From Ignavibacteriales bacterium (GTDB lineage: Bacteria > Bacteroidota > Ignavibacteria > Ignavibacteriales > Melioribacteraceae): DNA of 64,000 bases. The notes below the pieces were generated by a model that was not told where the DNA came from, made no database searches, and saw nothing but the letters and a program-made list of their open reading frames with translations. Made by a program: the position numbers and the translations under genes. The stretch is taken from NCBI GenBank assembly GCA_020061355.1, contig JAGUYK010000006.1, positions 62,001 through 126,000 of the forward strand, written 5' to 3'. Of the stretch, positions 3,857-9,850 are shown in pieces; the stretch's first letter is position 1; every line of letters begins with the position of its first letter.

Positions 3857-3905
3857 TATAGAACACGGATTACACGGATCGAGCGGATTTCCGCAGATAA
3901 AAATT
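3857..3905 (+). repeat. Family B repeat, copy 3
   Basis: Contains gaacacggattacacggatc followed by gagcggatttccgcagataa, the same word order as at 2964. Lies in the gap between trmB and the threonine operon. Confidence 0.7.
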
Positions 3906-3911
3906 ATCTAT

Positions 3912-3932
3912 ATTCTGAACGCAGTGAAGAAT
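3912..3932 (+). repeat. Short family A repeat (ATTCTGAA..GAAGAAT)
   Basis: The sequence attctgaacgcagtgaagaa is a minimal version of the family A element whose longer copies read TGTCATTCTGA ... GAAGAATCT. Confidence 0.55.
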
Positions 3933-4065
3933 ACCGTGTAATGATAAGGGATAAATTATAAAAGAAAAGAGTAGTGAATGAATAGATTGAGGTTCTTTGT
4001 TCACGCCAAAGGATGGCGGGCGGGCTTAGTTTTTAGTTCCCGGTTATAACGTCTCACGGCCACCG

Positions 4066-4098
4066 TTCTTCTGAACCGAACGAAGTGAGGTGAAGACA
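4066..4098 (+). repeat. Family A repeat upstream of the threonine leader
   Basis: Reads ttcttctgaaccgaacgaag then tgaggtgaagaca, nearly the same as 46535-46571. It lies about 80 bases before the start of the Thr-rich leader ORF. Confidence 0.65.
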
Positions 4099-4177
4099 TA
4101 AGCAAAAAAATCCTTGTTACTTACAATTCCGATTATTATAATCAATTCAGAATTTAAGCATCTTTGAAGAAAATGAT

Positions 4178-4258
4178 ATGACAAACAAATTTTATTATTA
4201 CACATCCACACTCGAACAGACCATAACGTCCGCGACGCGTTATACGTACACGCGCTGA
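4178..4258 (+). CDS. Candidate threonine attenuator leader peptide (thrL-like)
   Basis: A 26-codon ORF ending 51 bases before the aspartate kinase ATG. It encodes 8 threonines (positions 2, 9, 11, 15, 17, 20, 23, 25), one isoleucine and 5 tyrosines. Such Thr enrichment directly upstream of a threonine operon is the hallmark of a ribosome-mediated attenuator, as in enterobacterial thrL. Two overlapping, mutually exclusive hairpins can form in the second half: ataacg/cgttat (4223-4228 with 4238-4243) and cgcgt/acgcg (4236-4240 with 4250-4254). I see no classical U-tract terminator before 4310, so control could act on translation. The ribosome binding site (gaagaa) is weak. Confidence 0.7.
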   Translation: MTNKFYYYTSTLEQTITSATRYTYTR

Positions 4259-4309
4259 TCAATATTTCTACTCGTTTTACAATTACAATAATCAGTACAG
4301 GAAAATAAA

Positions 4310-5704
4310 ATGAAAATATTAAAATTCGGCGGCTCAAGCGTCGGAAATGTCGATAGAATTAAAAGCGTGATCGGTATCCTCGACAAATACTACATAAAGA
4401 GGAAGAAGAAGATTACGGTTGTCTTTTCAGCATTCCAGGGCGTTACCGATAAGCTGATTGAAATAGGCAGCCTGGCATACGACAGAAAACCGTTATATAA
4501 AGAGGAGTTCAAAAAACTTTACAATAAGCATATTGAAATTGCAGCAGAACTTAATCCCGGGAATAATATTAAGGTTACTGAAAAAGTCGAGTGCCTCTTT
4601 TCGGAGCTTGAAGAGATTCTTCACGGAGTCTATTTAATAAAAGAGCTTACAAGCCGCACGCTCGATTACATACTAAGTTTCGGCGAACGGCTTTCAAATA
4701 CGATCATAAGCGAGACGATGAATGGCAGAGGAAACAGCTGCGAATATCTGGATGCATCAAAACTTGTTAAGACAAGCAGTGATTTCGGCAATGCACGTGT
4801 CGATTTTGATCAGACGAATAATAACATAGTAAAATATTTTAAAAAGAAGAAAGGGATTCAGATCATTACCGGTTTTATCGGTTCTACCATAAACAATGAG
4901 GTCACTACACTCGGACGGGGCGGATCGGATTACACCGCATCAATTTTCGGCTCAGCTCTTAACGCCAAAGCGATTGAAATATGGACTGATGTTGACGGTA
5001 TTTTAACAGCTGATCCGCGCAAAGTGAAAAACTCATTCCCGCTTAAATCCGTTTCTTACGAAGAGGCAATGGAGCTTTCACACTTCGGTGCAAAAGTTAT
5101 TTATCCCCCCACTATGCTTCCTGCACTTCAGAAAAAGATTAAGATAGTTATTAAGAACACGTTCAATCCTGAATTTGACGGAACGGAGATTGTTGCCCGC
5201 AATATCAACGACCCGTTTACAATAAAGGGAATCTCCTCGATCGATGATGTTTCGCTTCTCCGCGTTCAGGGGGGCGGCATGATCGGTGTTACCGGAATTG
5301 CATCACGGCTCTTTGGTGTTCTCGCACAGAATAAAATAAATATAATTCTGATCTCACAGGCGTCATCGGAACATAGTATTTGCCTTGCGGTACTTCCGGG
5401 TTTCGGTCAGAAAGCTAAAAAAGTGATTGAGGAGGAATTCCGGCTGGAGATGATCGATAAAAAAATCGGCGACGTTGCCGTTGAAGAGAATCTTTCGATA
5501 ATTGCAGTTGTTGGAGAGAACATGCGCCACACACCGGGAATTGCAGGAAAGGTTTTTCAATCATTAGGCAGACACAAAATTAATATTATTGCGATTGCAC
5601 AGGGCTCTTCTGAACTAAATATTTCTCTCGTAATTAATAAGAATGATCTTTCAAAAGCATTGAATGTAATTCACAAAAACATTCTTCAAGGTAGGCGAAG
5701 ATAA
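4310..5704 (+). CDS. lysC: Aspartate kinase, monofunctional
   Basis: A 464-residue aspartokinase that phosphorylates L-aspartate, the entry step to threonine, lysine and methionine. The substrate motif KFGGSS is at residues 5-10, a TLGRGGSDYTA stretch sits near residue 200, and two C-terminal ACT regulatory domains carry the typical GVTGIASRLFGVLAQNKINI and HTPGIAGKVFQ patterns. It resembles the kinase half of bifunctional ThrA but stops right after the ACT domains, so no homoserine dehydrogenase is fused. It is the first structural gene of the thr operon, with one base between its stop and the asd ATG. The operon context suggests the threonine-regulated isozyme. Confidence 0.92.
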   Translation: MKILKFGGSSVGNVDRIKSVIGILDKYYIKRKKKITVVFSAFQGVTDKLIEIGSLAYDRKPLYKEEFKKLYNKHIEIAAELNPGNNIKVTEKVECLFSELEEILHGVYLIKELTSRTLDYILSFGERLSNTIISETMNGRGNSCEYLDASKLVKTSSDFGNARVDFDQTNNNIVKYFKKKKGIQIITGFIGSTINNEVTTLGRGGSDYTASIFGSALNAKAIEIWTDVDGILTADPRKVKNSFPLKSVSYEEAMELSHFGAKVIYPPTMLPALQKKIKIVIKNTFNPEFDGTEIVARNINDPFTIKGISSIDDVSLLRVQGGGMIGVTGIASRLFGVLAQNKINIILISQASSEHSICLAVLPGFGQKAKKVIEEEFRLEMIDKKIGDVAVEENLSIIAVVGENMRHTPGIAGKVFQSLGRHKINIIAIAQGSSELNISLVINKNDLSKALNVIHKNILQGRRR

Positions 5705-5705
5705 G

Positions 5706-6755
5706 ATGAATAATAAAATATCTGTCGCAGTTTTAGGCGCAACAGGAAGCGTCGGACAAAAATTTGTAGAGCTTCTCGCAGATCATCCCTGGTTCGAATT
5801 AACAGAGGTTGCGGCTTCCGATAAATCCGTCGGTAAAAAATATAGCGAGGCTGTTAACTGGGTTATGCTATCACCTATTCCCGAAAAGATAAAAGATCTT
5901 GTTGTTCGAAAATGCGAGCCGGATTTGAAATCGAAGCTGGTCTTTTCGGCACTTGATGCATCGGTTGCCGGGGAGATCGAAACCGAATTCGCTAACAAGG
6001 GATATTATGTTATATCGAATGCACGCAATCACCGGTTCGATGATGATGTTCCGCTGATCATTCCCGAAGTGAATTCTGATCATCTTGAAATGATAAAGAA
6101 GAGATCGGGCGGCGGCGCAATAATCACCAATCCGAACTGTTCTACGATCGGACTCGCTCTCGCACTAAAGCCGATACATGATAATTTTGGCATTGAAGCG
6201 GTTAATGTTGTAACGATGCAGGCAATTTCCGGTGCGGGATATCCCGGTATATCGAGTATGGATATAATTGATAATGTTATTCCGTTCATTTCCGGCGAAG
6301 AGGAGAAAATAGAAACTGAACCGCTGAAATTATTAGGAAAACATGAGAACAGTAAAATTAACTTTGCCAATTTTAAGATTAGCGCACAATGCAACCGCGT
6401 TGCTGTAATTGACGGGCATACTGAATGCGTTCAGATTAAACTGAAGAAAAAAGTTAGTGCAGATGAAATTATCGATACATGGAAAAACTATTCGACACTG
6501 CCGCAGAAATTAAATTTACCTTCAGCGCCTGAGCATCCAATTATTTACTTTTGCGAAGAAAAATATCCGCAGCCCAAACTTCACCGCAACATTGGAAAAG
6601 GGATGGCGGTTGCCATCGGCAGATTGCGCGAATGTTCACTGTTCGATTATAAGTTTGTAATTTTATCACACAACACGATTCGCGGCGCTGCGGGGGGTAC
6701 AATTTTAATTTCCGAATTAATGAAGTCACAAGGATACCTGGACGGAATTTTATGA
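5706..6755 (+). CDS. asd: Aspartate-semialdehyde dehydrogenase
   Basis: A 349-residue NADPH-dependent enzyme that reduces aspartyl phosphate to aspartate semialdehyde. The Rossmann loop GATGSVG is at residues 11-17 and the catalytic Cys145 lies in TNPNCSTIG. The length and the SAQCNRVAV and GHTECVQIK segments match the archaeal/fungal-like Asd subgroup. It starts one base after the kinase stop and overlaps thrB by four bases, so translational coupling is likely. Confidence 0.93.
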   Translation: MNNKISVAVLGATGSVGQKFVELLADHPWFELTEVAASDKSVGKKYSEAVNWVMLSPIPEKIKDLVVRKCEPDLKSKLVFSALDASVAGEIETEFANKGYYVISNARNHRFDDDVPLIIPEVNSDHLEMIKKRSGGGAIITNPNCSTIGLALALKPIHDNFGIEAVNVVTMQAISGAGYPGISSMDIIDNVIPFISGEEEKIETEPLKLLGKHENSKINFANFKISAQCNRVAVIDGHTECVQIKLKKKVSADEIIDTWKNYSTLPQKLNLPSAPEHPIIYFCEEKYPQPKLHRNIGKGMAVAIGRLRECSLFDYKFVILSHNTIRGAAGGTILISELMKSQGYLDGIL

Positions 6756-7681
6756 AGAGAGTAAGAGTATTTGCGCCTGCAACAGTTTCCAATGTAGGAC
6801 CCGGCTTCGACATAATGGGATTTGCATTGGAAAAACCCGGCGACGAAGTTGAAGTTTCTATTTCAAGAGGAACTAAGATTCGTATCAGGAAAATTACCGG
6901 CGAAGGTAAACGCCTTCCATATGACCCGTTGAAGAACACTGCTACTGCATCTATCATTTCACTTTTGAAGTCGCTTGATATTAAAGTCGGGCTCGATGTC
7001 GTCATCAAAAAGAACATGGGGATCGGAAGCGGACTCGGTTCGAGCGCTGCAAGTTCGGTTGCCGGAGTTTTTGCTGTAAATAAACTTCTCAACCTTAAAC
7101 TTCCAAAAAGTGAATTACTCAAGCACGCGCTAAACGGCGAAATAATTTCGAGCGGCACTTTACACGCTGATAATGTTGCCACCTGTTTATTCGGCGGATT
7201 TGTACTGATTAGGAGTTACGATCCGTTAGATATAATAAAAATTGATTATCCTAAAAATTTGTTCTGTACGGTTATCTATCCGCAGATTGAAATCAAAACA
7301 AATGAAGCCAGGAAGATACTTGATAAGAAAGTGACGCGTGAAGTTGCGATTTCTCAAGCAGGCAATGCCTCGGGTCTGATAGCGGGTCTTTTGACCGGAG
7401 ATGTTGATTTGATTTCGAGGTCGATGAAAGATTTTATTGCCGAACCGAAACGTGCTAAGTTAATTCCGTGTTATAATGAAGTCAGGATTGCCGCATTGGT
7501 TAACGGTGCGATGAACTGTAATATCTCCGGTTCGGGTCCTTCTATGTTTAGTTTTTCTACTTCGGAAAGAGACGCAAAAAGAATTGCCTCTGCTATGAAA
7601 GAAGCCTCATTATCAAAGGGACTTAAAAGTGTATCATATATTTCAAAAATAAACAGACGCGGTCCGGTTGTTATAAAATGA
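6752..7681 (+). CDS. thrB: Homoserine kinase
   Basis: A 309-residue GHMP-family kinase that phosphorylates homoserine. The glycine/serine-rich ATP loop GIGSGLGSSAASS is near residues 90-102, the N-terminal PATVSNVGPGFD motif is present, and the C-terminal NISGSGPSMFSF loop closes the active site. It overlaps asd and thrC by four bases each (ATGA-type junctions), which shows a tightly coupled operon. Confidence 0.94.
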   Translation: MKRVRVFAPATVSNVGPGFDIMGFALEKPGDEVEVSISRGTKIRIRKITGEGKRLPYDPLKNTATASIISLLKSLDIKVGLDVVIKKNMGIGSGLGSSAASSVAGVFAVNKLLNLKLPKSELLKHALNGEIISSGTLHADNVATCLFGGFVLIRSYDPLDIIKIDYPKNLFCTVIYPQIEIKTNEARKILDKKVTREVAISQAGNASGLIAGLLTGDVDLISRSMKDFIAEPKRAKLIPCYNEVRIAALVNGAMNCNISGSGPSMFSFSTSERDAKRIASAMKEASLSKGLKSVSYISKINRRGPVVIK

Positions 7682-8988
7682 AATTCTACAGTACAAATAA
7701 AAAATCCGAACCGGTAAGTTTTGAGAAGGCTGTAATGGCTGGTCTGGCAGATGACGGCGGGCTATTTATGCCGCAGTCAATTCCGGAACTGGATAAGAAT
7801 TTTATTGATCAATTGGAAAAACTGACATTTCAGGAAATTGCTTTTTTAATCGCACAAAAATTTATTGAAGATGAGATCAGCATATCAGATCTGGAAAAGA
7901 TTATATATGCGGCGATTAACTTCCCCGCCCCGTTAATTCCTCTTGATGATAAAATTTCCGTTCTTGAGTTATTTCACGGACCGACGCTTGCATTCAAGGA
8001 TTTCGGTGCGCGATTCATGGCTAAAGCAATGGGGCATTTTATTTCGAAACAGTACCGTGAGTTAAACATTCTCGTTGCAACTTCCGGTGATACCGGAAGC
8101 GCTGTTGCAAACGGTTTTTACGATACACCCGGAATAAATGTTTTTATTCTCTACCCAAAGGGAAAGGTAAGTCACATACAGGAGATGCAGCTTACAACAC
8201 TTGATAAAAATGTTACTGCTCTTGAAATAGATGGAACGTTTGATGACTGCCAGAGACTCGTTAAATCTTCATTTGTTGATACAGAGCTGAACAAGGTATT
8301 AACGCTTTCTTCCGCTAACTCAATAAATTTTGCTCGCTTACTGCCTCAAATGTTTTATTACTTCGAGGCGTATAAGCAGATTGAAAATAGATTTGGCGAA
8401 ATCTTTTTCTGTGTCCCGTCGGGCAATCTCGGAAATCTTACCGCTGGTTTAATTGCAAAAAAGATGGGTCTGCCTGTTACAAAATTCATTGCGGCAACAA
8501 ACGCCAACACCGGATTTGCTGAATATATAAGAACCGGAAGTTTCATCCCCCGCAATTCAATATTAACTTTTTCAAATGCTATGGATGTTGGAAACCCGAG
8601 TAACCTTGAGCGTATTCGCGAGCTCTACTTCAACAACATTTCCGATATTCAAAAAAATATTTATTCTGATTCTGCAGACGATATTGAAACTCTAAAAACT
8701 ATTAAGTCGGTTTACGATAAGCATGGCTACATTTTAGATCCGCACGGAGCCGTGGGTTACTTCGTTCTTAATAATTATTTACAGAATCACGGATCGAATA
8801 ATCGCTCTGCTGTTTTGTTAGAGACAGCTCACCCTGCAAAATTTCTGGATGTAATTGAAAAAGAAGTGAAACTAAACATTGAAATTCCGGAAAGATTAAT
8901 GAATTGTTTGAGCAAAGAGAAAAAATCGGTTCCTCTTTCGGCGAACTATAGTCAATTCAAAGACTATTTATTGAGTATAAAAAAATAA
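7678..8988 (+). CDS. thrC: Threonine synthase
   Basis: A 436-residue PLP-dependent enzyme that converts O-phosphohomoserine to threonine. The PLP lysine is predicted at residue 107 in GPTLAFKDFGARF, and the phosphate-binding ATSGDTGSA loop follows. An N-terminal Thr_synth_N domain (FYSTNKKSEPVSFEKAV) is present. Last gene of the operon. Homoserine dehydrogenase, the step between asd and thrB, is not encoded in this window. Confidence 0.94.
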   Translation: MKFYSTNKKSEPVSFEKAVMAGLADDGGLFMPQSIPELDKNFIDQLEKLTFQEIAFLIAQKFIEDEISISDLEKIIYAAINFPAPLIPLDDKISVLELFHGPTLAFKDFGARFMAKAMGHFISKQYRELNILVATSGDTGSAVANGFYDTPGINVFILYPKGKVSHIQEMQLTTLDKNVTALEIDGTFDDCQRLVKSSFVDTELNKVLTLSSANSINFARLLPQMFYYFEAYKQIENRFGEIFFCVPSGNLGNLTAGLIAKKMGLPVTKFIAATNANTGFAEYIRTGSFIPRNSILTFSNAMDVGNPSNLERIRELYFNNISDIQKNIYSDSADDIETLKTIKSVYDKHGYILDPHGAVGYFVLNNYLQNHGSNNRSAVLLETAHPAKFLDVIEKEVKLNIEIPERLMNCLSKEKKSVPLSANYSQFKDYLLSIKK

Positions 8989-9052: not shown

Positions 9053-9850
9053 ATGAAAATCAGATCTATCTTAAAACTAACAATACTTCCCTTTCTATTA
9101 TTTGCTTTCAATAATTGCTCGAGTGTAAAAGAGGTTCAGAGCCTTCCGAACAATAACGAGGTAATAATTGACGGACTTAAAAATGATTGGGAAGGCAAGC
9201 TCAGTTTCGATAGCAAAGCAAAGATAGCTGTTGGATTCAAGAACGACGGAGAGAATTTATACATCTGCGTTACAACCAACGACCGCACTAACATGATGAA
9301 AATATTAAGACTCGGAATGACAATATGGCTTGAACCTGAGAGCAGTAATAAAAAGATCGGGATTAAGTATCCAATTGTTGATATGGAGAGGATGAGAGAT
9401 CTCCCTTTCGGGCAGGAAAATTTGAGTAATGAAAATCCGGAAGAGCGATTTTCAAAACTGATTGCAAACCAAAAAGAATTGTCTATTGTTAATGAAGACG
9501 ACTACCCGCTTTTTTTACTAAGCAGTAATGATGAAAATAATTTCTATGCAAAACTCGGTTTGACCCGTGAAAGTTTTGTTTACGAATTGAAAGTTCCCCT
9601 TTCGACAAACAGCCGTGCAAAATATTTCATCGAGGCGAAACCATCGGAAAAAATCAGCATCGGGATTGAAACGAATGAATTCAAGTTGGAGGCTCCAGGC
9701 GGAAGATCCGGCGTTGGAATGCAGCCTGGCGGTGGAAGACCATCAGGAGGAGGCGGTAGATCCGGAAGGATGCCGGGCGGCGGAAGAAATCAAGAAATGA
9801 ATTTTGAACAGATTAAATTATTGTTTGATGTTAAGCTGGCTGGAGGTTGA
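9053..9850 (+). CDS. Lipoprotein with CBM9-like fold and Gly/Arg-rich tail
   Basis: A 265-residue protein with a lipobox at Cys22 (FNNC). Residues about 35-200 start with VIIDGLKNDWEG and resemble the CBM9/DOMON-type beta sandwich common in Bacteroidota surface proteins. After about residue 218 comes a flexible tail rich in Gly, Arg and Pro with repeated GGGR words. The ligand is unknown. The start is supported by aggga upstream. It stands alone, 64 bases after thrC, and may be read through from that operon. Confidence 0.7.
   Translation: MKIRSILKLTILPFLLFAFNNCSSVKEVQSLPNNNEVIIDGLKNDWEGKLSFDSKAKIAVGFKNDGENLYICVTTNDRTNMMKILRLGMTIWLEPESSNKKIGIKYPIVDMERMRDLPFGQENLSNENPEERFSKLIANQKELSIVNEDDYPLFLLSSNDENNFYAKLGLTRESFVYELKVPLSTNSRAKYFIEAKPSEKISIGIETNEFKLEAPGGRSGVGMQPGGGRPSGGGGRSGRMPGGGRNQEMNFEQIKLLFDVKLAGG

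Follow-up and report, generated by a model that had tools for sequence, protein, structure and literature searches.

A conserved threonine-rich leader without a recognisable terminator before the lysC-asd-thrB-thrC operon of Melioribacteraceae-like Ignavibacteria, and its possible coupling to Rho

The enterobacterial threonine leader (thrL; the Thr leader of Rfam) places a threonine-rich ORF before the first gene of the threonine operon. Its Thr codons are adjacent, and it carries a hairpin-plus-U terminator, which the scan used in this study recovers in Escherichia coli. The cysteine leaders of Mycobacterium (poly-Cys ORFs; Seliverstov 2005; Canestrari 2020) are arranged differently: contiguous regulatory codons lie by the leader stop and there is no conserved terminator. 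Rho was suggested earlier for the poly-Cys leaders (PMC1262725), and they are reported to act on translation (PMC9031893, PMC13236596). In E. coli tnaC and toiL, where the ribosome stands on the leader ORF determines whether Rho terminates transcription further down. tnaC senses free tryptophan via its nascent chain, and toiL is reported to sense antibiotics through RNA structure. Rho termination of the tna operon is named in PMC1262725.

The leader described here, from Melioribacteraceae-like Ignavibacteria, resembles thrL in its threonine content and its position before the first gene of a threonine operon, the Mycobacterium leaders in its regulatory codons by the stop and its lack of a terminator and, as we propose below, tnaC and toiL in the way that ribosome position would decide downstream Rho termination. 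It differs from thrL in that the Thr codons alternate with others, no terminator is found, the loci tested have no Rfam match and mutually exclusive hairpins are not conserved. From the Mycobacterium leaders it differs in amino acid (threonine, not cysteine), in lineage (these are Actinobacteria) and in its alternating rather than contiguous codons. Our full-text literature search, which covered few subscription papers, turned up nothing that we recognised as a threonine leader in Bacteroidetes, Melioribacter or Ignavibacteria, and a prior description may exist. A terminator-based attenuator survey states that translational attenuators go undetected by it (PMC2965389); leaders of the terminator-free design would likewise escape such surveys.

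We analysed a window of 64,000 nucleotides (the whole stretch of DNA under study) from the 3.69 Mb genome of an Ignavibacteriales bacterium. A sequence-only reading had proposed that a Thr-rich ORF of 26 codons stands before a lysC-asd-thrB-thrC operon, and this is right on both counts. Pfam and NCBIfam matches identify lysC, a monofunctional aspartate kinase (4310..5704, + strand), followed on the same strand by asd (aspartate-semialdehyde dehydrogenase, 5706..6755), thrB (homoserine kinase, 6752..7681) and thrC (threonine synthase, 7678..8988). The leader ORF (4178..4258, + strand) starts with ATG, translates as MTNKFYYYTSTLEQTITSATRYTYTR and ends ACG-CGC-TGA; it holds 8 Thr (codons 2, 9, 11, 15, 17, 20, 23 and 25), 1 Ile and 5 Tyr. 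Its stop lies 51 nt upstream of the lysC start at 4310, before which a probable Shine-Dalgarno sequence, ACAGGA, is found (4297..4302, + strand). The two strands of the window hold 1184 ORFs of 12-60 aa, and no other among them packs 8 or more Thr into 40 aa or fewer; dinucleotide shuffles of 4010-4309 yielded such an ORF in 46 of 20000 cases. The Tyr clusters, which had been singled out as odd, look incidental because they are absent from the other leaders of the family.

The leader transcript may begin at a sigma70-like promoter (4114..4142, + strand; 10/12 matches) made up of TTGTTA (4114-4119), 17 nt and TATAAT (4137-4142), from which we infer a start near 4149. In a scan of the 15 leader loci compared below, run without a shuffle control, 11 showed a TTG-17-TATAAT-like site 26-37 nt upstream of where the leader begins. 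In G093, TTGTAT-17-TATACT can be seen by eye although the scan chose another site; G019 has a differing promoter-like site 47 nt before its leader start, and the scan called nothing comparable in G082a and G088. A TTTTAYAATTA-like box, also noticed by eye, lies about 30 nt before lysC at 4275-4287 in the window and recurs at the corresponding position in the nearest relatives of the window (L002-L005). Similar boxes stand in front of some leaderless thrA genes, and the one before lysC might act as an internal promoter.

Several features of the surrounding genome (G000) deserve mention. Directly 3' of thrC, an ORF of 265 aa (9053-9850 of the window) matched nothing in Pfam or NCBIfam at E 0.001. 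Homoserine dehydrogenase is encoded apart from the thr operon, at G000:C36, and the 400 nt upstream of its gene showed no Thr leader. As for other attenuators that might serve for comparison, hisG was unmatched in the genome, and neither ilvB nor trpE had a match that passed the curated cut-off, which for trpE was also missed by 9 of 14 control genomes. Because these matches are absent or below cut-off, the organism may depend on an external supply of several amino acids.

Orthologous loci were collected by LysC searches of three overlapping sets, made up of 58 relatives, 80 family genomes and 165 genomes from the order. The named records nearest to the LysC of the window are metagenome assemblies labelled Bacteroidetes bacterium (81% identity) and Melioribacter roseus or Melioribacter sp. 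(61-80%), hence our name Melioribacteraceae-like for the family. The comparison comprises the 16 family loci, the window's own counted, with a monofunctional lysC at 66-100% identity; contig-end lysC fragments (e.g. G015, G022, G067) and aspartate kinases at 30-38% identity fall outside it. A Thr-rich leader (4-12 Thr) precedes lysC at 15 of the 16 loci, in 14 genomes of the Melioribacteraceae-like family, although the 15 are related and such counts are therefore not independent. The sixteenth orthologue, in G007, has no Thr leader in the 265 nt of upstream sequence available, and lysC-length paralogues at 55-57% identity (G010, G087, G088) are also without one. The LysC match contains a single in-frame TAA in G012 and in G087, and both were kept unaltered.

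Downstream of lysC, asd and at least part of thrB are matched at 14 of the 15 leader loci as examined. The remaining one, L090, comprises no more than upstream DNA; L035, identical to it in upstream sequence, has asd, thrB and thrC. Genome G082 has two monofunctional lysC loci (L076 and L090) with differing Thr leaders, one like that of G019 and the other like that of G012, and a bifunctional thrA besides. With starts inferred by choice, the 15 leaders have 26-40 codons and begin with ATG (9), GTG (4) or TTG (2), and their stops are 51-73 nt from lysC. Those of G018 and G082a contain only 4 Thr, and the G018 leader ends in Met-Cys-Met-Cys. Leader sequences are quick to diverge between loci, and four leader pairs, with pN/pS of 0.35, 1.69, 1.31 and 0.93, give no consistent sign of purifying selection on the peptide.

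The end of the leader is far more regular. In the window, its C-terminal segment (4226..4258, + strand) carries ACG codons, with Thr alternating toward the stop across the family, then a last codon of the form YGY (Arg or Cys), then the stop. YGY is the final codon in all 15 leaders and is preceded by ACG in 13, ATG in one and ATT in one. TAA (8 leaders), TGA (4) and TAG (3) all serve as the stop at this one fixed place, and we therefore argue that translation ends there. Thr accounts for 105 of the 498 leader codons, and ACG for 57 of these 105, compared with 15 of 67 Thr codons in the operon genes of the window. Of 44 tRNA matches, 30 loci were read, and these include tRNA-Thr with each of the anticodons GGT, TGT and CGT. 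Given that Thr codons adjoin a conserved stop ahead of a threonine operon at 15 of 16 loci, a Thr-sensing leader is the natural reading. Going by this evidence, we consider it very probable that a Thr-sensing leader peptide controls the lysC-asd-thrB-thrC operon.

How it might do so depends in part on what is missing from the locus. The lack of a clear U-tract terminator, already remarked on in the sequence-only reading, holds for every leader compared: no hairpin-plus-U terminator was called at any of the 15 loci, in a stretch that began up to 260 nt upstream of the lysC start and ended 120 nt downstream of it, and 3900-4500 of the window holds no terminator-like site. The same scan was positive for 13 of 14 Thr-run leaders, namely nine from sister families, one record matching a sister-family genome, the family member G070 and two records from other groups, where a third, L058, was the one missed. 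This is a check of the scanner and gives no blind rate, because the 14 were chosen for having Thr-run leaders. At 27 further loci of the order, including one without a start found and a few with little upstream DNA, a terminator was called in 12, of which 11 have a Thr-rich ORF in view; at one order locus, G107, a Thr run is seen but no terminator was called. Scanning the window with Rfam at the gathering threshold gave no match of any kind, whether to a Thr leader, a T-box or an amino acid riboswitch, and the Rfam Thr leader had no match up to E = 5 at nine loci, three of them terminator-free leader loci.

Conserved RNA structure is likewise hard to find. Two overlapping hairpins had been proposed within the ORF (4223..4254, + strand), and both exist: 4223-4243 forms 7 bp (-4.0 kcal/mol) and 4236-4254 forms 5 bp (-4.1 kcal/mol). 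Their strength is ordinary, however: of 200 shuffles, 39 fold as stably as the first and 60 as stably as the second. Nor are they conserved. The leader region of the window (4149-4330) is, if anything, under-structured relative to shuffles (z = +1.19). Averaged over the 15 loci, fold energies are close to those of shuffles (mean z of -0.29 in the leader, -0.73 at the stop and -0.20 in the spacer), although some single loci fold well around the stop (z of -3.8 in G001 and -2.5 in G004, with +0.3 in the window). RNAalifold predicted 0 pairs over the 15 loci, whether given the leader end or the leader in full; restricted to the window and its three nearest relatives, it gave 5 pairs, one of them changed on both sides, at -1.56 kcal/mol. 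A stop-codon hairpin in seven loci reaches a Fisher p of 0.003, post hoc and with loci that are not independent, and RNAalifold finds 3 pairs in these seven; p is 0.52 for the other eight loci, including the window, and 0.019 for all 15 together. Pairing of the leader end motif with upstream sequence finds no support (p 0.59). The upstream comparison in relatives, set beforehand as a test of the leader, was thus answered in two halves: the short Thr ORF is conserved and the stems are not.

The spacer between leader and lysC has a composition of its own. In the window, the stretch from the leader stop to the lysC ribosome-binding site (4259..4294, + strand) has C 0.19 and G 0.03, and is a candidate Rho-loading stretch. 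C exceeds G in the spacer (stop to 15 nt before lysC) at all 15 loci, with mean C 0.18, mean G 0.04 and a skew of 0.64. Skews are 0.13 in 28 hand-picked leaderless upstream regions and 0.10 in 32 5' regions of the window, which can include that of lysC itself (Mann-Whitney p about 3e-6 against each set). RNA on which Rho loads is expected to be richer in C than in G; this signature is only a proxy for a Rho site. The genome encodes rho (697 bits, over cut-off).

We favour a leader that gates Rho, since no terminator is called, no structure is conserved and the spacer, unlike the controls, is Rho-like in composition. When threonine is plentiful, the ribosome would pass the Thr codons and depart at the stop. 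With the ribosome gone, the C-rich leader end and the spacer would be exposed, Rho could load, and transcription would end early. When threonine is scarce, ribosomes would stall and queue over the Thr codons, leaving too little free RNA for Rho, and the operon would be transcribed. A point against this model is that no ribosome would cover the spacer itself unless it had stalled at the final Thr codons. We regard the full statement, that the leader senses charged tRNA-Thr and, without an intrinsic terminator, gates Rho, as about evenly balanced between right and wrong, the Rho step being the one that we infer.

Alternatively, the leader may act on translation: its transcript would hide the lysC start, and a ribosome stalled at the Thr codons would free it. 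This is the main rival because the closest layout, in which the regulatory codons stand by the leader stop and no terminator follows, is that of the Mycobacterium poly-Cys leaders (PMC1262725), and ORFs of that type are reported to act in translation (PMC9031893, PMC13236596). It is also consistent with the SD-like stretch that is visible by eye before all 15 lysC starts, with AGG, GGG or TGG at the other loci placed similarly to the motif of the window. Long-range pairing between leader and lysC start is suggestive in single loci and looked convincing in G019, G082a and G088. We dropped it as a candidate because duplexes of leaders with their own lysC start average -9.65 kcal/mol and those with swapped partners -9.64 kcal/mol (permutation p 0.48). 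Counter to translational control, too, modelled accessibility of the lysC start shows, by eye, no consistent change with the position of the stalled ribosome over the 15 loci, and 0 pairs are predicted across them. The earlier suggestion that the mechanism may be translational is not favoured by the accessibility and pairing tests; we think it unlikely, though worth serious attention. The hairpin switch driven by a stalled ribosome, suggested along with it, finds no backing in either test or in the ordinary, unconserved hairpins.

The spacing of the Thr codons raises another possibility. Counting back from the stop, Thr occupies positions 2, 4, 6, 8, 10 and 12 in 13, 10, 9, 8, 8 and 5 of the 15 leaders, and positions 3, 5, 7, 9, 11 and 13 in 5, 2, 6, 3, 2 and 4. 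Thr pairs number 40 at lag 2 and 13 at lag 1 (T-x-T-x-T), a difference reached by 0 of 20000 within-leader permutations. Eight more distinct leaders, hand-picked, give 26 and 7 pairs (again 0/20000). The alternation is absent from 15 Thr leaders of the other kind, entered whole or in part, which have 43, 41 and 44 pairs at lags 1-3. Such a pattern, together with the constant YGY and the near-constant ACG before it, could point to a device in which T-x-T-x-T-(R/C)-stop is read as a nascent peptide in the exit tunnel, or repeated ACGNNN is read by an RNA-binding protein. Arg and Cys are chemically dissimilar, however, Thr codons other than ACG also occur, and alternation could merely space out the sensing codons. 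We consider this device improbable. Returning to Rho gating, the pattern can be joined to it in a broader and more tentative proposal, which we hold with somewhat more doubt than belief: that the Melioribacteraceae-like Ignavibacteria possess a class of terminator-free Thr leader in which Thr at every second codon (ACG) forms the sensor, followed by (R/C)-stop and a C-rich stretch, and in which ribosome queuing would exclude Rho.

A transcription attenuator of the classical thrL kind, which uses a hairpin terminator, would fit the Thr codons, their position and the operon, and leaders of this kind do exist nearby. Within the order, classical-looking leaders that are rich in Thr and carry strong terminators are found in sister families (L012, L014, L016, L020, L022, L026-L029, L116-L121, L123, L125, L127, L129, L130). 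These resemble the leaders studied here in standing before an aspartate kinase gene, and differ in having Thr runs, a GC-rich hairpin with a U-tract, and bifunctional thrA as the downstream gene. We saw no published description of them in the literature searched. G070 (L085), a family member with bifunctional thrA, likewise has a Thr-run leader and a terminator; both leader designs therefore occur within one family. Further afield, aspartate kinase is preceded by a Thr-rich leader and a terminator in one record each from the Peregrinibacteria and the Sphingobacteriaceae (L055, L067). At the leader loci themselves, terminators are found at 0 of 15, the window has none between 3900 and 4500, and the Rfam Thr leader is unmatched in the loci tested. 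The classical reading is therefore already contradicted by the sequence, and we rate it as very improbable.

Equally slight is the likelihood of a chance ORF without function, or of an ORF that merely reflects an element in the DNA: promoter-type matches in the leader region are as many as in shuffles (2 observed, 2.0 expected), leader sequences diverge fast, and the end motif, searched as plain DNA across the genome, occurs no more often than its reversed control (2 sites each), but the frame end, Thr content and stop are conserved at 15 of 16 loci, the ORF stands alone among the short ORFs of the window, and the second genomic site of the end motif lies inside a long ORF.

Looking across the order, the two leader designs stand before homologous genes, and this offers a natural comparison for how one design replaces another. 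The alternating Thr codons are a separate puzzle, for which a role in the nascent peptide or in RNA binding is possible. If the proposed mechanism is true, the Melioribacteraceae-like leaders would show that amino-acid attenuation of a biosynthetic operon can be gated by Rho in a lineage other than the Proteobacteria and Actinobacteria.
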